Positions 28,540 to 38,119 of a stretch of DNA of 64,000 nt are shown in pieces. The notes beneath the pieces were generated by a model, which was not told the origin of the DNA, made no database searches, and was given only the letters and a program-made list of their open reading frames with translations. The position numbers and the translations under genes are program-made. How positions within the stretch are numbered: position 1 is the stretch's first letter; each line of letters opens with the position of its first letter. Source of the DNA: Magnetococcales bacterium (GTDB lineage: Bacteria; Pseudomonadota; Magnetococcia; Magnetococcales; Magnetaquicoccaceae). The DNA lies in the NCBI GenBank assembly GCA_015231755.1, contig JADGAZ010000016.1, positions 1-64,000 on the forward strand, read 5' to 3'.

Positions 28540-29514
28540 TCAAGAAGACGGTGGAAATGATAATCTCTCGATGCGGGGGCGGAAAACCTCATGTAATTTT
28601 TCTAATTTGTCAGCAAGCCAGGAAAATTGCGACGGCCAATCTTTTTCCGACGCGACGTCGATGTTTGGATTGACTATGGCAATTTTTGAACTTTTTGCAT
28701 GAGGGAGTTCAAGCCAATCAACGGAAAATTCAAGCTCTTTTTCGATTTCATCTTTGTTGTCTTGTAATGCAGCAAAAGCTGCCTTCGGATTCATATCTCT
28801 TGGATAGATATTGATCTCAACACTGATGCGTTGCTTATCAATACTGGCTACTGCGCACAGGAGAAATCCGGTGCGGCCTATGGCAAAGTTGATCCAATGA
28901 CTGGTCGATGGTTTCTGAGGGCGCAGTACGGTTTTCTTGCGATTCTCTGAAAAGAAATCCCTGAGTCCCGTCCAATAGCGTTGATACAGAAGTGCATTTT
29001 CTGATAAATCTCTAGGATCTGGATTTTTAGTGACTCTTTTTCTCCAGTCGTTTGGTCGGGAAATCACGTTGAACTTGGGGGCGGGATCAGAGGTTCCGAT
29101 TTTCCAGAGTTCAATTTCCAAACCAAAGAAACCGTAATCCGCTGCTGTAATTTCGTTCATCCAGTCGAGCGCTGCCCGATGTTCATCCGTGAATGAAGTG
29201 GCCACCCACACAATGGCCTTTGCACTCACTCCCGCTGCGTAGGTAAGAATCTGTCCAAGATGAGAATGGTCAGTTCTTTCCAGCTGATTCTCAATAAGTA
29301 CGTATTGCTGTGTCAGGGTATCCTTGCATAGGAGATCCGCCTTGAAAATGCCAACGGAATGTTCTTGCGCGACAAGCTCAAGTTCCATTCCAATTGTCTT
29401 TCCAAGTTCCGCGAGATTTTCTTCTTGAGCAAGCCAGGGTGTGAAATGCTGCGCTTCGGATTTCCATACTGAGCGTAAATCATCCAGCTTGACAAGTGTT
29501 CCGAGTGTTATCAT
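28540..29514 (-). CDS. DUF4268-type protein with N-terminal nuclease-like domain
   Basis: A 324-residue protein. Residues about 40-120 resemble a PD-(D/E)xK nuclease-like fold, with Asp in FKADLLCKD and the ExQ-type motif YVLIENQLERTDHSHLGQIL followed by AAGVSAKAIVWVAT. The C-terminal half (from about residue 170, RYWTGLRDFFSENRKK and TGFLLCAVASIDKQRISVEI) matches what I know as DUF4268, often seen in mobile or defence-associated genes. The DNA is clearly more AT-rich than that around it, suggesting acquisition. It stands alone, with 458 bases on one side. It may be a solitary defence nuclease, but no partner or methylase is nearby. Confidence 0.7.
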   Translation of the reverse strand: MITLGTLVKLDDLRSVWKSEAQHFTPWLAQEENLAELGKTIGMELELVAQEHSVGIFKADLLCKDTLTQQYVLIENQLERTDHSHLGQILTYAAGVSAKAIVWVATSFTDEHRAALDWMNEITAADYGFFGLEIELWKIGTSDPAPKFNVISRPNDWRKRVTKNPDPRDLSENALLYQRYWTGLRDFFSENRKKTVLRPQKPSTSHWINFAIGRTGFLLCAVASIDKQRISVEINIYPRDMNPKAAFAALQDNKDEIEKELEFSVDWLELPHAKSSKIAIVNPNIDVASEKDWPSQFSWLADKLEKLHEVFRPRIERLSFPPSS

Positions 29515-29577: not shown

Positions 29578-32115
29578 TCAGGCCGGAGAACCCACCCGGG
29601 TGATGACCTGGGGATCTTCGGGGCTGGAGGGGCGGATTTCGATCACCTGGGCTGGTTCTTTGAGGTTCTGAAAATAGGCTGCGGCAGCGGCTGCGGCTTG
29701 TTCCTTGTCGGGATAACGACCGATCCAGATCAATTGCCAAGTGCGACCGTCGGCGTCGCGGGTTTCGCACAGATAGAGGTCAAGACCTTTGGCGGACAGT
29801 TGCACCAGTTTTTTGTCGGTTTCGGTCGGGTCCAGGAAGGCGGCCACCTGCACGGCGTATCCTGCCGGGTTGGGGCCGGTGGACGGAGTGGTGCGGTTTT
29901 CCGCTTGGCCTTTTTGGGGCGGGGGATTGGTGAAGGGCATGGGTTCGGAGACGGTGGAGCTGCCCTGCCGGGGCACCGGAATGATGATGCCGGGTCGGCC
30001 CTCCTGGTCGGTAAATCGCTTGAGGGTCTGGCGTGCCGCCTGTTCGTTTTCCATCCGACCGATGGAGACTTGATACCGGGTCTGTTTTCGGTCGTCCTGG
30101 ATTTCTCGCAGATACAGATCGTGGCCTTTGTCCTGCAACTGTCCGATCAGTTTGATGGCGGAGCCTTCGTCCCGGAAGCTGCCGACCTGGATGGTGTATT
30201 GCAGCAGATCCGGCGTGGGTTTCCGGGAGGCGGTTTTGGTTTCGTCGTCGGACATGAGATGAACAAACTGCTGCAAGGGGATGTTTTCCATTGCTTGCAG
30301 GGTGTTCGGGTCCGGGGATGGTTTGGAGGTCGGCACGATGTTGTCGGCGGGAGAGGGGTTGTGCTCACTTGAAGCGTGGACCGTCCGGGCCAGGGCGTCC
30401 AAGGCGTTGGAAACCTTTCCCTGGGAGGGGGGACGGTGATTGTCTCGGACCGTTTCGGCCAGAGCGGCGCGGGCTTCCTGGGCCGATAGCTCTTGTTCCG
30501 GGAGTCGGGTGGTTTGCACCGGTGGTGTCGCTGGGGTCTGGAGCGATTGTGGGGTTTCGGTTGCGGGTTCCGACTGGAAGAGCGCGTCCACCAGACCGTT
30601 CATGGCCTCTTCCTGGGCGGAGGTGAGGGGCGCATCGGTTGCGGAAGCGGCGATCCGGTTGTTTTCCGGCCGGTTCGGGGTGGTTGGCAAGGCGGATGTC
30701 ACCGGGGGCCGGGGGGGTTCCGGGGGTTGGGATGGGGCCGGGGGGGCAACCGCTTGCGGGGCTGGCGTTGTGGTTTGGGTCTGGGCCATGGTTGCGGGAA
30801 ACGCGGAGGCCGGAGGATCCGGCTGGACCAGGGTTTCCTTGAGGCGTCCCATGGCGGCGAGCAGTCGGAACGACTCCATCAGGAACTGGAACTCCTCTTC
30901 CACCAGCAGTCGTTTGGCGGCCTGAAGTTCGTGTTCGGAGTTGAGCAGGTCCAGCAGGCTTTCGCTGCCGAGACGGTGTTGCTCCTGATGATCGCGGTTG
31001 ACCGCCTGGATGGTTTCAAGATGTTTTTCCAGGCTCTGGGTCCGGGCGCGGGAGGCCAGCAGGGCGTTCCAGGCCCGATTGACCTTCTCTTCGATCTGTT
31101 GACGCACCTCTTCCATTTTATCCCGGAAGCGGGCGGCCTTGAAGGAACTCTCCTTGAACCGGGAGGTGTCGGAACCTCCCCGAAACAGATTGTACTTGAA
31201 ACGCAACATGGCCGACGCGTCCTGGGAGTAGCTTCGGGTGCCGCTGGCGTTGGCGCTGTCGGAAACCGCCATCTCCAGACTGATCTTGGGCCACAACGAG
31301 GCGGCGGTGGCCTTGCTTTCGGCACGGGTGGCATCCAGGTCCGCCTTGGCGGCCAGCAGGGCCGGATGACGGCTCATGGCGGTTCCCATGGCGTCGTCGC
31401 GGGTGGTGGGCAGTTGTTTGGGATCGATACGGGGAATGTCGAGTGTGCCGGGGGGGGGGAATCCCACCAGGGTGACGAAACGGCTTTCGGCACTGCGCAA
31501 CAGCCCTTCGGTGGAGGCCAGATCCGATGCGATCAGGGCAACCCGGCTTTCCGCCAGTCGGGCATCCATTTCCGCGGTGATGCCCAGACGGGTGGTCTGG
31601 CGGGTTTTGACCAGAATCTGCGAATGCAGCGTCATGGCCTCCTTGGCCACTTCCAGCAGCTTGCGCTGTTTCAGGACTTCGGCATAGGCCAGAGAGACAT
31701 CCAGGGTGACGGTCTCGGCCACGTCCAGAAAAGAATAGTCCGCCCCTTCGACCTGGGCTTTGGCCTGCGTCACCTTGTGAACCGTGTTGAATCCGTCGAA
31801 AATGGGTTGATTGATGTTCATTCCCGCTTCGCCCCGGTCCATGGTCAGACCGCCCCGATCCTGTATGCGTGTGGTGGGGGTGTTGACCCACTCCCGACCT
31901 GTGCCCATATTGAAGTCGATGGTGGGGAGATATCCGGCGAAGGCCTGACGGATTTTTTGACGGGTCTCTTCCAGTTCCTGTCCGGCGGCCAACAGTTTGG
32001 GATTGGATCTCAGAGCCTCGTTCAGGGCGTCGTCCAGCGATAGCGCCCATGCGGCGTGGATCGGACTGCAACACAGCAGCCACGGCAGCACGAAGGTGAG
32101 AAGGGTCCGTTTCAC
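29578..32115 (-). CDS. TolC-family outer-membrane protein fused to two SPOR domains
   Basis: An 845-residue protein. After a signal peptide (LLTFVLPWLLCCSPIHA) come the two TolC/OEP halves to about residue 450 (LSLDDALNEALRSNPKLLAA; MNINQPIFDGF; LKYNLFRGGSDTSRFK-like). A Pro/Thr/Ala-rich linker of about 180 residues follows, then two SPOR domains at about 637-714 (YTIQVGSFRDEGSAIKLI) and 752-827 (YAVQVAAFLDPTETDKKL). TolC forms the outer-membrane duct of type I secretion; SPOR domains bind denuded septal peptidoglycan. It diverges from the ABC/HlyD genes of the same system. The start is taken as GTG at 32115, just before the signal peptide. Confidence 0.88.
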   Translation of the reverse strand: MKRTLLTFVLPWLLCCSPIHAAWALSLDDALNEALRSNPKLLAAGQELEETRQKIRQAFAGYLPTIDFNMGTGREWVNTPTTRIQDRGGLTMDRGEAGMNINQPIFDGFNTVHKVTQAKAQVEGADYSFLDVAETVTLDVSLAYAEVLKQRKLLEVAKEAMTLHSQILVKTRQTTRLGITAEMDARLAESRVALIASDLASTEGLLRSAESRFVTLVGFPPPGTLDIPRIDPKQLPTTRDDAMGTAMSRHPALLAAKADLDATRAESKATAASLWPKISLEMAVSDSANASGTRSYSQDASAMLRFKYNLFRGGSDTSRFKESSFKAARFRDKMEEVRQQIEEKVNRAWNALLASRARTQSLEKHLETIQAVNRDHQEQHRLGSESLLDLLNSEHELQAAKRLLVEEEFQFLMESFRLLAAMGRLKETLVQPDPPASAFPATMAQTQTTTPAPQAVAPPAPSQPPEPPRPPVTSALPTTPNRPENNRIAASATDAPLTSAQEEAMNGLVDALFQSEPATETPQSLQTPATPPVQTTRLPEQELSAQEARAALAETVRDNHRPPSQGKVSNALDALARTVHASSEHNPSPADNIVPTSKPSPDPNTLQAMENIPLQQFVHLMSDDETKTASRKPTPDLLQYTIQVGSFRDEGSAIKLIGQLQDKGHDLYLREIQDDRKQTRYQVSIGRMENEQAARQTLKRFTDQEGRPGIIIPVPRQGSSTVSEPMPFTNPPPQKGQAENRTTPSTGPNPAGYAVQVAAFLDPTETDKKLVQLSAKGLDLYLCETRDADGRTWQLIWIGRYPDKEQAAAAAAAYFQNLKEPAQVIEIRPSSPEDPQVITRVGSPA

Positions 32116-32275
32116 AAGCAGGCACCCAAGGAACGGATGGAAGGTTGATGGTGAATGGACGTTTCGCAATTTGTATGCCTGTTATTTTGACATTCCTCCT
32201 TGAAATGCAGTCACGCTCAGCCGATAAGAGGTGCGGATAGTGACGAAGGCCAAAGGCGGGAACGGAGCCGGGATC

Positions 32276-34042
32276 ATGGTGAAGGATTCTTTTTTTTCCA
32301 AAGATGGATGGCCGGCGCGGCTGACCCCGTTTTCTGTGGTCAAGGACTCCTTGTGGGATCTGATGTTGGTTTCGACGCTGCTCAACCTGTTGGCTTTGGT
32401 TTTGCCGTTGACGCTGTTGCAGGTCTATGACCGCATCCTGCAAAACGAGGCCACCAGCACCTTGAGCCTGTTGCTGATCGGGGTCTCCGTGGCCTTGCTG
32501 GTGGAAGCCTTCCTGAAAATGGGCCGTTCCTACATCGGTGCTTGGCTGGGAGCCCGGTTTGAACACAATGCCAGCGTCAGCGCCCTGGAACGGCTCATGA
32601 GCCTCAACTTCGCCGACTTTGAACGGGCCGGGGCGGGGGTGCATCTGGAGCGGATTAACGCCCTCAACGTCATCAAGGATTTCTACTCCGGCAGCGCGGT
32701 GCTGGTGATTCTGGACCTGCCGTTCGTGCCGATCTTTCTGATCATGATCTACCATCTGGCCGGCTTGCTGGTATTGATTCCGGTGATCGTGTTTGTATTG
32801 TTCATGCTGTTCACGCTTTACATCGGCACCCAGCTCCACCGGGCGGTCTCCGAACGCATGAAGGCCGATGATATACGGGTCAATTTCATCATCGAGGTGT
32901 TGAACGGCATCCACGCGGTCAAGTCCATGGCCATGGAGGCCATGATGCTGCGTCGCTACGAGCGGCTTCAGGAAGCCTGCGCCCAGGGCGCCTTGCATGT
33001 CGGCATGCAAAGCGCGGACGCCCAGAACATCGGCTCGTTTTTTTCCCAGTTGACCACCGTGGCCGTGGTGGCGTTTGGGGGCATTCTGGTGATCAATCAC
33101 GATTTGACCATCGGTGGTCTGTCGGCGTGCAGCATGTTGGCGGGTCGATCCATTCAGCCGTTGCAGCGGGCTGTGGGCATCTGGGCCCGTTTTCAGACCA
33201 TTCGCGTGGCCAAACAACGGTTGAGCGCCATTTTTGAACTCAAGCCCGACGCCCCCCCCGGAACACCCCCCCTCCCGGAAGTGCAGGGCAGACTGGTGCT
33301 GGAGAATGTCAGTTTTTCCTATCCTGTGGAAGCGGCGGAACATGCGGGCAAGGACAAAACCGGATCAATGGCGGCGCCGATGGTGATCCGGGATGTCAAT
33401 CTGGTGGTCAATCCGGGGGAGAGCATCGCCATTCAGGGCACCACCGGCAAAACCACCCTGTTGTGGTTGATGATGGGAGCCATCCGTCCCACCAAAGGCA
33501 GGGTGCTGATCGACGATTATGACTTGGCCCATTACGATCCCAGTTCCTTGCACTCCCAGGTGGCCTACATGCCCCAGGTGGGCATGCTGTTCAAGGGAAC
33601 CATTCTGGACAATATCCACATGTTTCGGCCCGAACGGGAAGAGGCGGCTTTGGAAGCGGCGTCCAAGCTGCATCTGGAGGATTTCATCGCCAAACTGCCC
33701 AAAGGTTACGAAACCATCATCGACGATGGGGCCGACGAATCCATTCCCCGAGGCATCAAGCAGCGCATCACCATTGCCCGTGCCCTGGTCTCCGCGCCCC
33801 GCATCGTCTTGTTCGACGAGGCCAATACCGCCATCGACAGCAGCGGCGATGAGAAATTGAAGGCGTTGCTGGAAGCCATGCATGGCAAAACGACCCTGAT
33901 CATGGTCACCCATCGCCCCTCCCTGGAGAAAATTGCCGATCGGGTGTACGAAATCAAGGATGGCACCCTGGTTCCCAAACCTCCCAGGGCTCCGTTCGCT
34001 CCTCCCCCCTCCCCGGCGAAGCTGGATTCCCGGAGGTCTTGA
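32276..34042 (+). CDS. Type I secretion ABC transporter with abnormal ATP-binding motifs
   Basis: A 588-residue permease-ATPase of the PrtD/LapB type: six membrane helices in residues 20-300 (LTLLQVYDRILQNEATSTL), then a nucleotide-binding domain. The Walker A reads G388-T-T-G-K-T, two residues shorter than GxxGxGKS/T, and the signature loop reads S489-I-P-R-G-I-K-Q instead of LSGGQ. The Q-loop (AYMPQVGMLF), Walker B LFDEANTAID (E515) and H-loop VTHRPS are present. The frame is otherwise clean. GGAG stands 8 bases before ATG 32276; a GTG at 32231 is possible. It ends 4 bases before a second ABC gene and probably pairs with it. Confidence 0.88.
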   Translation: MVKDSFFSKDGWPARLTPFSVVKDSLWDLMLVSTLLNLLALVLPLTLLQVYDRILQNEATSTLSLLLIGVSVALLVEAFLKMGRSYIGAWLGARFEHNASVSALERLMSLNFADFERAGAGVHLERINALNVIKDFYSGSAVLVILDLPFVPIFLIMIYHLAGLLVLIPVIVFVLFMLFTLYIGTQLHRAVSERMKADDIRVNFIIEVLNGIHAVKSMAMEAMMLRRYERLQEACAQGALHVGMQSADAQNIGSFFSQLTTVAVVAFGGILVINHDLTIGGLSACSMLAGRSIQPLQRAVGIWARFQTIRVAKQRLSAIFELKPDAPPGTPPLPEVQGRLVLENVSFSYPVEAAEHAGKDKTGSMAAPMVIRDVNLVVNPGESIAIQGTTGKTTLLWLMMGAIRPTKGRVLIDDYDLAHYDPSSLHSQVAYMPQVGMLFKGTILDNIHMFRPEREEAALEAASKLHLEDFIAKLPKGYETIIDDGADESIPRGIKQRITIARALVSAPRIVLFDEANTAIDSSGDEKLKALLEAMHGKTTLIMVTHRPSLEKIADRVYEIKDGTLVPKPPRAPFAPPPSPAKLDSRRS

Positions 34043-34046
34043 CCCG

Positions 34047-36227
34047 ATGCCCGATTCCATTTTTTTCTCCGGCGAGGATCACGAACTGGAGTCCGTGCGG
34101 CGCATGATCCGTCCCCGGCAGCCTGTGACCGGTTTGCTGGCGGAGTTCGCCCGGCTTTCGGATTTTGGCGCCTGCATGATTCCATTGCTCATGTCTTTGG
34201 GCTATCGGGGGGATTTGCGCCATGTGGCCGAGGCGTTGCCCCACTTTGCCGAAACCCTGGACCTCACCGGCCTGCGCAACATGATGGCCAATCTCACCTA
34301 TGTCAGCCGACCGGCCCACCTCGACCTCAGAGAGATTGATCCCCGCTTGATGCCCTGTCTGTTCGTGCCGGACCAGCAGCCTTGTATGGTGCTGCTGAAA
34401 CGCAAAATGGATGGATGGATTCTGTTCAATGGGGCCACCGGTCAACTGGAGCGTCAGCCCCTGGCTTACATTCCCGGTACCATCTATTTTTTCGCGCCCA
34501 TGGACCTGGGAGAACGGGCCGCCATCCAAAAGCGGCTCGGTTGGTTCCGCATGGTGGCGGAACGGTTCCGGCAGTTGATCGTCTATATTTTCATGGTCAC
34601 CTTCGCCATCACCTTGTTGCAGGTCGCTCCGCCACTGTTCACCATGGCTGTCTATGATCGTGTGGTGGGCAGTCGGTCCCTGGAGACCTTGGGTTATTTG
34701 CTGATCGGGATCGGCGTGGTGATGACTTTCGATTGGCTGATGCGGAAATTGCGCACTAAAATGCTCATGTATATCGGTTCACGCATGGACAGCATTGTCA
34801 GCAACGCCATTTTCATGCGCATTCTGTCCCTGACCCCCAGCTTTACCGAACGGGCTCCCACCGGCGCCCAGGTGGCCCGCATCAAGGATTTCGATTCGGT
34901 GCGTGAGTTTTTCACCGGGCCGTTGATGATGGTGTTTTTCGAGTTGCCTTTTTCCATCGTTTTTTTTGGGGTGATCGCCCTTCTCGGTGGGCCGTTGGCC
35001 ATCGTGCCCATGGTGACCATGGCTTTGTTCGTGGCCTTGTGGGCCGTGATGATGCCCATGGTGGCCCGGGAAGAGGCCCGCTCCCGTCGAGCGAGCAGCC
35101 GCAAACAGGAATTCGTCGTCGAGGCTTTGGGCCGGATGCGGGCGCTCAAATACGGGGGAATGGAGTCCATCTGGCTGGAACGGTTTCGTCAATTGTCGGC
35201 CCAGGCCGCCATGGCCAACTTTCGTACCGCCCTCATCAACGCTGCGGTCAACGCCATCTCCACCGTGTTGATCGTCGGTTCCGGGGTGGTGGTGATCGGA
35301 CTCGGGGTGTTCCGGGTGATGGACGCCTCCATGACCACCGGTGGTCTGGTGGCCTCCATGGTGTTGGTGTGGCGGGTGCTGGCTCCGATCCAAAGCGCTT
35401 TCATCGCCATGACCCGGCTGGAACAGGTCCGTTCCAGCATTACCCAGATCAACGGATTGATGAATGTCGTCCCGGAACGGGAAGAGTATACTTCCATCGA
35501 ACCGATCAAAACCTTCAAGGGTCAGATTTCCTTTGTGCGGGTCAGCATCCGTTATGTTCCCGAGGCGGAACCCGCCCTCATGGGAGTCAATTTCGAGGTC
35601 ACTCCGGGTCAGGTGGTGGCCCTGATCGGTCCCAACGGTTGTGGCAAGTCCACGGTGGTCAAGCTGATCGCCGGACTCTATGCCCCCCAGGCCGGAAGCA
35701 TCCGCATCGACGGATTGGACATCCGCCAGATGAATGTCATCGAATTGCGTCACGCCGTGGCCTATGTGCCCCAGACCTGTAGCCTTTTTTATGGCACCAT
35801 TGCCCAAAATCTCCGACTGGCCCACGCCACCGCATCGGACGAGGATCTGGAAGATGCCTGTCGCAAGGCCCAGGTGTATGACGAAATCATGGCGTTGCCC
35901 AAAAAATTCTGGACCCGGGTGGGGGACCAGAAATCCGCCCAGCTTCCCGCCAGCATGGTCCAGAAACTCTCCTTGGCCCGCGCCTATCTGAAACCCTCCC
36001 AGATCATGCTGTTCGATGAACCGGCCAACAGCCTTGGCTGGGAGGATGATCAGGCCTTCATTCGGGTGGTCAAGGAGTGGCGGGGCAAACGGACCATCTT
36101 TATCGTCACCCACCGGCCCAGCCATGTGCGCATCGCCGATCTGGTCTTGTATTTCGATCAGGGCTATTTGCGTCTTGCCGGCAAGCCGGATGATGTGTTG
36201 CGTCAAATTCCAGGAGGTTTTGTATGA
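34047..36227 (+). CDS. Type I secretion ABC transporter with C39-like domain
   Basis: A 726-residue exporter: an N-terminal C39-peptidase-like domain (residues about 30-160) in which the catalytic Cys/His are not seen (QPCMVLLKRKMDGWILFNG), as in HlyB/LapB; six helices (VAPPLFTMAVYDRVVGSRS); and a nucleotide-binding domain. The Walker A is normal (G528-P-N-G-C-G-K-S-T), but the signature is L633-P-A-S-M-V-Q. Walker B LFDEPANSLG (E658) and H-loop VTHRPS are kept. GGAGG lies 10 bases before the ATG. It overlaps the adaptor gene (ATGA). With the preceding gene it would form a heterodimer in which only this protein has a full Walker A. Confidence 0.9.
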   Translation: MPDSIFFSGEDHELESVRRMIRPRQPVTGLLAEFARLSDFGACMIPLLMSLGYRGDLRHVAEALPHFAETLDLTGLRNMMANLTYVSRPAHLDLREIDPRLMPCLFVPDQQPCMVLLKRKMDGWILFNGATGQLERQPLAYIPGTIYFFAPMDLGERAAIQKRLGWFRMVAERFRQLIVYIFMVTFAITLLQVAPPLFTMAVYDRVVGSRSLETLGYLLIGIGVVMTFDWLMRKLRTKMLMYIGSRMDSIVSNAIFMRILSLTPSFTERAPTGAQVARIKDFDSVREFFTGPLMMVFFELPFSIVFFGVIALLGGPLAIVPMVTMALFVALWAVMMPMVAREEARSRRASSRKQEFVVEALGRMRALKYGGMESIWLERFRQLSAQAAMANFRTALINAAVNAISTVLIVGSGVVVIGLGVFRVMDASMTTGGLVASMVLVWRVLAPIQSAFIAMTRLEQVRSSITQINGLMNVVPEREEYTSIEPIKTFKGQISFVRVSIRYVPEAEPALMGVNFEVTPGQVVALIGPNGCGKSTVVKLIAGLYAPQAGSIRIDGLDIRQMNVIELRHAVAYVPQTCSLFYGTIAQNLRLAHATASDEDLEDACRKAQVYDEIMALPKKFWTRVGDQKSAQLPASMVQKLSLARAYLKPSQIMLFDEPANSLGWEDDQAFIRVVKEWRGKRTIFIVTHRPSHVRIADLVLYFDQGYLRLAGKPDDVLRQIPGGFV

Positions 36228-38119
36228 CCACTCCGGATCCCAAGGAGAAGCCACCCGCCAAGGCGGATGGACGCCCCGCGGCCCGCTCCATGATGGTGGC
36301 CATTGGCCGTCCGCCCAAAAAGGACAAGGTCGCGGAGAGCGTGGTCCCGGAACCGGCTGCACCGCCCCGGATGGCGGCTTCGTTTACCGTCGGCGCCCCC
36401 CCGGACCTTGCGGAGAAAACCAAGAATATCCCGGCCCCGGGAGCCGCGTCCGTCCAGCCCCCCACGGCCTCTGCCGCCATGGTTGAGCCTCCGGCTTCCG
36501 TGGTCCCGGTGGTGGTGCCTGTGTCGGTGGTGGCTTCTGCTCCTGTCGTGTTGTCCACGGTGGCCGTGGCCCCGACTCCGATTCCATTGCCGCCACCGCC
36601 CGTGTCCCCGCCACCGCCCGTGTCCCCGCCACCGCCCGTGTCCCCGCCACCGCCCGTGTCCCCGCCACTGGTCACGTTGGCGGCGGCTTCAGTCGCGCCT
36701 TCCTCCTCCGGGCATGCGCCATCCAGGTCTGCCGATTCTCAGGCGGCACTGTTGGTGGACCCCGATGTGCTCAAACCGGAGAAAAAAGTTGCCCAGACCA
36801 TGAAACAGGGCAACAAGCAGCGGCGTTATCTGGCCCAGTCCGTGGTCTTGGAGGAGTCTGGCCTCTCCAGTCTGGTGCGTCTTGCCCTGGGGTTTACGGC
36901 AGGGGTTATGATCTTGTTTCTCGTTTGGGCCTCCTTTTCCCGGATGGAGGAGATGGCGCCTACGGTCGGCGAGGTCATGCCTGCGGGGCCGGTGCAACAT
37001 GTCCAGCATCTGGAAGGGGGGATCGTCAAGGCGATTTTGGTCAAGGAAGGCTCTTTAGTGGATGTGGGTGCGGTGCTGTTTCAGATGGCCCCGGAGTCGG
37101 CCCTGGCGGAACTCAACCAAATGCGCGCCCGGCATGCCGCTCTGGAGGCGCAAATTGCCCGCAACCGGGCCTTCCTGGAGGAAAAAGAGCCGACTTTCGA
37201 GACGATTCCCACCGAATTTTCCCATCTGATCCGGGATCAGGTGCAGCTTTTGACCGCCCAGCGGGCCTTTCGGGAAAGCCGACGGGATGTGTTGCGGCTC
37301 AAGATGGATCAACGCCGTCTGCGCATTTCCAATCTTACCTCCCAACGGGATTCCCTGGAACAGCAGTTGCGTTATTTCGACGAAGAGGTCGCCATGCGTC
37401 GGGCCGGTCTGGCCAAGGGGGTGATGTCCCGGTTGGCCGCCCTGGGCAGCGAGCGGGATCGCAGCCGTGTGGCCGGGGATCTGGAACGTACCCGGGGCGA
37501 TCTGGTGACCGCCCAGAAGGAGCTGGATGAGGCGGTCAAGCAATTGGTCTCCCTCAATGACGAGGTCAGGCAGGACGCCCTCAAGGAGTTGGGTGCCATC
37601 ACGTCCGAGTTGAGCCAGTTGCGTGAAGGCATGTTGCGTCAGCAAAACCGGGTCGAGCGTCTGGATGTGCGGGCGCCGGTCAAAGGGGTGATCAAGAATT
37701 TGCAGATGGAGACCTTGCGGGGTGTGGTGCCTCCCGGTGGGCTGCTGACCGAAATCGTGCCGGTGGAGACTACACGACGGGTGGAGACCCGCATCAATAC
37801 CCGCGATGTGGGCCACGTCAGAGCCGGACAGGCGGTGACGGTCAAGGTGACGACCTACGATTTTTCCCGCTATGGGGGGATCGATGGGGTGTTGGAGTCG
37901 ATTTCCGCCACCACCTTCAAGGAGTCAAGCGATCCGAACCCCTATTACAAGGGAATCATCCGGCTGGAACGGGCTTATGTGGGCAACGATCCCAAACACA
38001 ACGAGGTGTTGCCCGGCATGGCGGTCCAGGCGGATATCCATACCGGCTCCAAGACCTTGATGGAATATATGCTCAAGCCGATCTACGCATCGATGGACAA
38101 GGCGTTCCGGGAGCGGTGA
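36224..38119 (+). CDS. HlyD-family type I secretion membrane fusion protein, long Pro-rich N terminus
   Basis: A 631-residue adaptor. Residues 1 to about 215 are a cytoplasmic Pro/Val/Ala-rich tail including four exact PPPVSP repeats. One membrane helix lies near 216-240 (LALGFTAGVMILFLVWASF). The periplasmic part has the lipoyl half HVQHLEGGIVKAILVKEG, a coiled-coil hairpin (about 290-480) and the closing half VRAPVKGVIKN with the beta-barrel VLPGMAVQADIHTGSKTLMEY. It bridges the ABC pair to the TolC partner. Typical HlyD/PrtE adaptors are about 440-480 residues, so the N terminus is a large addition. ATG overlaps the previous stop (ATGA). Confidence 0.9.
   Translation: MTTPDPKEKPPAKADGRPAARSMMVAIGRPPKKDKVAESVVPEPAAPPRMAASFTVGAPPDLAEKTKNIPAPGAASVQPPTASAAMVEPPASVVPVVVPVSVVASAPVVLSTVAVAPTPIPLPPPPVSPPPPVSPPPPVSPPPPVSPPLVTLAAASVAPSSSGHAPSRSADSQAALLVDPDVLKPEKKVAQTMKQGNKQRRYLAQSVVLEESGLSSLVRLALGFTAGVMILFLVWASFSRMEEMAPTVGEVMPAGPVQHVQHLEGGIVKAILVKEGSLVDVGAVLFQMAPESALAELNQMRARHAALEAQIARNRAFLEEKEPTFETIPTEFSHLIRDQVQLLTAQRAFRESRRDVLRLKMDQRRLRISNLTSQRDSLEQQLRYFDEEVAMRRAGLAKGVMSRLAALGSERDRSRVAGDLERTRGDLVTAQKELDEAVKQLVSLNDEVRQDALKELGAITSELSQLREGMLRQQNRVERLDVRAPVKGVIKNLQMETLRGVVPPGGLLTEIVPVETTRRVETRINTRDVGHVRAGQAVTVKVTTYDFSRYGGIDGVLESISATTFKESSDPNPYYKGIIRLERAYVGNDPKHNEVLPGMAVQADIHTGSKTLMEYMLKPIYASMDKAFRER
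36593..36664 (+). repeat. Tandem 18-base repeat, four copies
   Basis: Four consecutive identical copies of ccaccgcccgtgtccccg (72 bases) inside the adaptor gene encode PPPVSP four times. Exact identity at third positions indicates recent slippage expansion. Confidence 0.97.

Follow-up and report, generated by a model that had tools for sequence, protein, structure and literature searches.

A TolC-type secretion duct with two SPOR domains, a probable peptidoglycan tether in Magnetococcales

The placement of TolC-type ducts in the outer membrane and their passage through the peptidoglycan mesh remain an unsettled question; E. coli TolC itself is not known to possess a lipid anchor. A gene of a Magnetococcales bacterium (family Magnetaquicoccaceae) bears on this question. 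It lies within the first 64,000 nucleotides of contig JADGAZ010000016.1 (GenBank assembly GCA_015231755.1), the stretch analysed here and referred to as the window. A preliminary description, made from the letters alone, read this gene as a TolC-type duct that continues in the same frame into two SPOR domains and might anchor type I secretion to sites of cell wall remodelling. Is this fusion genuine, and what would an export duct do with a SPOR tail?

The open frame, on the minus strand, spans positions 29578–32169 when counted from the first possible start. A GTG start at 32115, followed by a signal-peptide-like stretch, gives a protein of 845 amino acids with the stop codon at 29578–29580, and the coordinates originally given to the gene, 29578–32115, are thus correct. 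The signal-peptide-like N-terminus (residues 1–24, VKRTLLTFVLPWLLCCSPIHAAWA; 32044–32115), assigned by inspection, precedes the TolC/OEP duct (residues 25–430; 30826–32043), which is recognised by Pfam, NCBIfam, AlphaFold and Foldseek: the OEP family matches in two repeats with 168.7 bits, and the TIGR01844 score of 281 bits, against the NCBIfam cut-off of 225, assigns it to the type I secretion subfamily of TolC. The linker that follows (residues 431–636; 30208–30825) is mostly disordered, with a few predicted helices. It is rich in Pro and Thr, as initially reported, and in Ala as well (36 P, 30 A and 24 T in a stretch of 210 residues); its length is about 206 residues, not the 180 first estimated. 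SPOR domain 1 (residues 637–716; 29968–30207) and SPOR domain 2 (about residues 750–830; 29626–29868) score 69.8 bits over the two stretches and 47.7 and 31.5 bits singly, against a Pfam cut-off of 21 bits (PF05036), and a short conserved end lies C-terminal to SPOR2. The single frame running from a TolC-type duct into two SPOR domains is intact, with both families above their curated cut-offs in the profile searches that the preliminary description had proposed. The mature protein contains a sole cysteine, Cys 783 (about window 29767–29769), which is located within SPOR2 and is invariant across eight orthologous tails; it could form an inter-protomer disulfide within a TolC trimer.

Structure prediction, another of the checks proposed at the outset, leads to the same architecture. 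The AlphaFold model contains a TolC fold with beta hairpins and long periplasmic helices of 70 residues (helix pLDDT mostly above 90) and two SPOR folds of the beta-alpha-beta-beta-alpha-beta type (pLDDT mostly 80–90). Foldseek aligns the model with E. coli TolC (1ek9, E = 1.1e-17). With the whole 845-residue model as the query, SPOR structures rank low because the duct dominates; with the tandem SPOR tail, these matches improve and include the RlpA SPOR domain on denuded glycan (6i09; rmsd 2.5, TMt 0.73), CwlC and DedD, at E-values that are modest owing to the small fold, and other ferredoxin-like pairs top the list, as expected for a fold of this size. Sequence comparison of the SPOR part with the PDB yields weak matches, namely CwlC and FtsN in a profile search and, with phmmer, just CwlC along with spurious alphaRep matches.

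Two kinds of evidence speak to the activity of the tail. In the RlpA SPOR domain, Q270 and F274 contact the glycan (PMC6895207), and each SPOR domain of the window protein has the equivalent Gln and Phe (YTIQVGSF in SPOR1, YAVQVAAF in SPOR2). Among the eight orthologous tails, the Gln of SPOR2 is invariant and that of SPOR1 occurs in six. The selective constraint follows the domain layout: dN/dS is 0.14–0.20 for the duct core, 0.10–0.26 for SPOR2, 0.27–0.39 for SPOR1 and, for the linker, 0.40–0.54 in four of the five comparisons and 0.27 in the fifth, the most divergent one; the closest pairs weigh most in these estimates because synonymous sites of the more distant pairs are nearly saturated. 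Thus, SPOR2 is constrained as strongly as the duct, and the linker is not.

The best-supported role of the SPOR tail, and in our judgement the probable one, is to tether the duct to peptidoglycan. The earlier proposal of a duct with real SPOR domains tied to amidase-treated peptidoglycan is well supported by the Pfam matches, the predicted fold, the residue motif, the selective constraint, the periplasmic topology and the amidases of the genome: besides an RlpA-like SPOR protein, it encodes three members of Amidase_3, so that both the ligand (denuded glycan) and its users exist. The recurrence of SPOR tails on TolC ducts throughout the order, with repeated gain or loss, also counts in favour of the tether. 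The C-terminus of TolC is periplasmic. Together with the position of the TolC equatorial region just over the peptidoglycan layer (PMC13095208), this puts the wall within reach of the tail. Under the tether model, the gene product would serve as the outer-membrane duct of a type I secretion system with two ABC transporters, its C-terminus would exit on the periplasmic side near the peptidoglycan, and a flexible tether would lead from there to the two SPOR domains. A TolC trimer, which is to be expected here, would carry six SPOR domains and gain avidity; these domains would bind glycan strands that amidases have freed of stem peptides and would fix the secretion duct to the cell wall. Enrichment or insertion of the duct at septa or fresh poles, where denuded glycan is richest, would come last and is the weakest step. 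Septal localisation, which draws on the analogy with PilQ and its AMIN domains, is plausible, and anchoring without any special localisation fits the data equally well. Against the tether stand the weaker constraint on SPOR1, the absence of its Gln from two orthologues and the basic patch of SPOR domains (RlpA R302, R309 and R311), which is recognisable by motif just in part; this patch varies among known SPOR domains too. Furthermore, orthologues without SPOR domains, one in the genus (L016) and some in a second genus, indicate that the tether is dispensable in evolution, and a sister two-ABC system of the window genome has a SPOR-less TolC.

The genes next to the fusion supply the remainder of the presumed secretion system. 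Divergent from the TolC-SPOR gene, on the plus strand, are type I secretion ABC transporter 1 (32231–34042, with a likely ATG start at 32276), ABC transporter 2, whose N-terminal region is C39-like (34047–36227 from an inferred start, the longest ORF beginning at 33933) and an HlyD-type adaptor (36224–38119; TIGR01843, 370 bits, aligned from residue 216). Other members of the genus show the same divergent order of TolC and ABC1-ABC2-HlyD, as does a second genus from another family. The adaptor possesses an additional Pro/Ala-rich N-terminal region of about 210 residues; longer adaptors of 694–817 aa are found in a second genus, and that of a sister two-ABC system in the window genome (L134) is without the extra region. 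The TolC of this sister system (506 aa) has no SPOR domain and is a natural control for the fusion. A DUF4268 gene (28540–29514) lies directly downstream of the fusion gene on the same strand and keeps this position in the closest relative (L185); none was seen beside the fusion gene in L186 or L188.

The cargo bears directly on the main and serious rival, which is compatible with the tethering and localisation reading and which we regard as a possibility, albeit the lesser one: the tail could be a load-bearing anchor and not an address label, holding the duct to the wall so that a giant exported protein that stays threaded through it can withstand pulling, with septal placement as a side effect. 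Precedents exist in LapA, which is anchored in the TolC-like LapE (PMC6890996), and in the AMIN domains of PilQ, which have been proposed to bear load too (PMC5285504). Giant RTX-type proteins are encoded in the window genome, one of them in a frame of about 5000 aa, together with a LapG-type protease (PF06035, 40.6 bits) and a LapD-type receptor (PF16448, 30.4 bits), both above the Pfam cut-offs, and ABC transporter 2 is nearest to the LssB-type subfamily TIGR03375, with a score below the cut-off of that model. However, neither an RTX gene nor an adhesin gene, in particular one with the N-terminal retention module expected from LapE-type anchoring, adjoins the operon in the syntenic loci read, and none was seen in the window. 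The LapG-type (L206:7744–8733) and LapD-type (L207:6661–9405) genes are on other contigs, with no adhesin or type I operon seen near them, and the neighbour of the 5000-aa RTX gene is a separate TolC, which lacks SPOR. This RTX gene was considered as the cargo of the operon by neighbourhood and was rejected on that account.

A different reading, that the SPOR domains no longer bind glycan and instead dock proteins, e.g. those of the SPOR pathway or the divisome, appears unlikely. Such a role would agree with the moderate constraint on SPOR1 and with its variable basic residue position: at the place that the motif aligns with FtsN R285 and RlpA R309, SPOR1 of the window has Gln, and some orthologues have Arg. 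Docking would also agree with the SH3, POTRA and TPR-like modules on other TolC tails of the order, modules that often bind proteins. Nevertheless, the window protein retains the glycan-site Gln and Phe in each of its SPOR domains, the fold matches that of the glycan-bound RlpA domain, and SPOR2 is under strong constraint, all of which favours the peptidoglycan tether over docking.

The phyletic distribution of the fusion addresses the remaining alternatives. An orthologous TolC is present in nine of the 10 other genomes of the genus; the one without it is an assembly that is 57% complete. Eight of these nine orthologues bear SPOR, in one or two copies, and the ninth, L016, has a TPR-like tail; together with the window genome, this makes nine genomes of the genus with SPOR on the orthologous gene. 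The fusion recurs beyond the genus, across Magnetococcales, in the count suggested by the preliminary description. In 48 Magnetococcales genomes, 87 distinct TolC-type frames were detected, 21 of them with SPOR according to a profile built for the survey; matching the places of SPOR and TolC added three SPOR-bearing frames from a distant TolC clade, for a total of 24 TolC-SPOR frames in 21 genomes. For 12 of these frames, a score over the Pfam cut-off was confirmed. Two frames, L202 (20.7 bits) and L221 (18.5 bits), fall slightly below the cut-off of 21, so that 20–21 of the 48 genomes is a fair range. The window genome itself contains a second, distant TolC-SPOR gene (L131, 31 bits). Outside the order, none of the 73 TolC loci of other Proteobacteria covered by a genome scan has SPOR in the same frame, and a sample of some 350 further genomes of the phylum gave no match at E <= 1e-80 extending into the SPOR part among the two top candidates scored in each, a selection that does not extend to distant TolC clades. 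On plasmids, 129 records matched, and not one of them spans 80% of the query.

On a tree of the ducts alone, the SPOR label requires nine changes, and the well-supported branches force at least six gains or losses; this tree is a quick one with some long branches and predates the addition of the three distant-clade frames. Repeated gain and loss would be expected if abundant SPOR domains were joined to envelope proteins by chance and had little function, and SPOR domains are indeed abundant in this order: the median number of SPOR matches per genome is 19 (6–29), compared with 4 (0–13) in 125 other Pseudomonadota, both for genomes that are at least 95% complete. Still, such evolutionary noise is very improbable given that the orthologous fusions persist across the genus under low SPOR2 dN/dS and that two genera preserve the divergent gene order together with a TolC that bears SPOR. 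A frameshift or assembly error joining two genes can be dismissed, its probability being close to nil, because this fusion occurs, in stop-free open frames, in the nine independently assembled genomes of the genus and in other families.

How does the probable tether compare with known systems? E. coli TolC, LapE and the TIGR01844 ducts resemble the fusion protein in the two OEP repeats, the TolC fold and the adjoining ABC and HlyD genes; what sets the fusion apart from these TolC-type factors is its 400-residue C-terminal tail with two SPOR domains. Neither the TolC papers searched nor the accessible portion of the large review PMC8277102 mentions a SPOR tail on TolC. The preliminary description named no TolC-SPOR fusion as described, and none was found in the literature searched, with subscription journals mostly outside the search. 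From the other side, FtsN, DamX, DedD and RlpA share with the fusion the SPOR fold, the Gln/Phe glycan motif and the placement of SPOR in the periplasm behind a flexible linker, but in those proteins SPOR is attached to a divisome protein or a wall hydrolase, whereas here it is attached to an outer-membrane export channel.

In the literature searched, the nearest published cases are secretins, namely PilQ with AMIN and LspD with an N-terminal SPOR domain. PilQ of type IV pili is likewise an outer-membrane duct subunit with peptidoglycan-binding domains of its own, and its AMIN domains have been shown to guide the machinery to the places where the cell will divide (PMC5285504); it differs in being a secretin with N-terminal AMIN domains and not a TolC with C-terminal SPOR domains. 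LspD of Legionella also fuses SPOR to an outer-membrane secretion channel and is cited in PMC9239104 as the sole type II secretin known to have a SPOR domain. It is, however, a type II secretin whose SPOR domain is N-terminal. In the window genome, a C-terminal SPOR domain (32 bits) occurs on a GspD-like type II secretin (L130:3637–6114, contig C3). No published secretin-SPOR combination other than LspD was found in the literature searched. The lipoprotein YbjP provides another parallel, as an extra factor that holds E. coli TolC in place near the equatorial region (PMC13095208).

The TolC-SPOR genes are not the only SPOR carriers of the window genome, which also encodes an RlpA-like lytic transglycosylase, TPR proteins, an AAA ATPase and a PEGA protein with this domain, in addition to the GspD-like secretin. 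Nor is SPOR the only module found on the ducts of the order. SH3 domains are present on the TolC tails of L136, L226, L231, L233 and L235, with L231 below the cut-off. In the window genome, the L136 TolC (L136:7974–10010; C16, 88 kb) ends in bacterial SH3 (SH3_3, 48 bits; two copies by eye) and adjoins HlyD- and ABC-type genes. A C-terminal ShlB-type POTRA domain occurs on the TolC-type ducts L230 and L237 of a second genus of the family. In a genome from another family (G090; L203:78–6389), an open frame of 4891 aa ends in a TolC and is followed by ABC and HlyD genes; the frame represents either TolC fused to a giant exported protein or the loss of a stop codon.

A naturally occurring duct that carries its own tether, probably one that binds glycan, and that is conserved over an order, with several gains or losses, makes the question of duct placement testable. 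The Magnetococcales stand out as a bacterial group in which SPOR proteins are unusually numerous and are linked to secretion and envelope machines. We tentatively suggest, as a possibility and not as the expected outcome, that a general design of export ducts operates in this order, in which interchangeable periplasmic tails (SPOR, SH3, POTRA and TPR-like, along with the SPOR secretin) dock the ducts to sites of wall remodelling. If this is true, wall remodelling would set both the position and the firmness of secretion machines in Magnetococcales.
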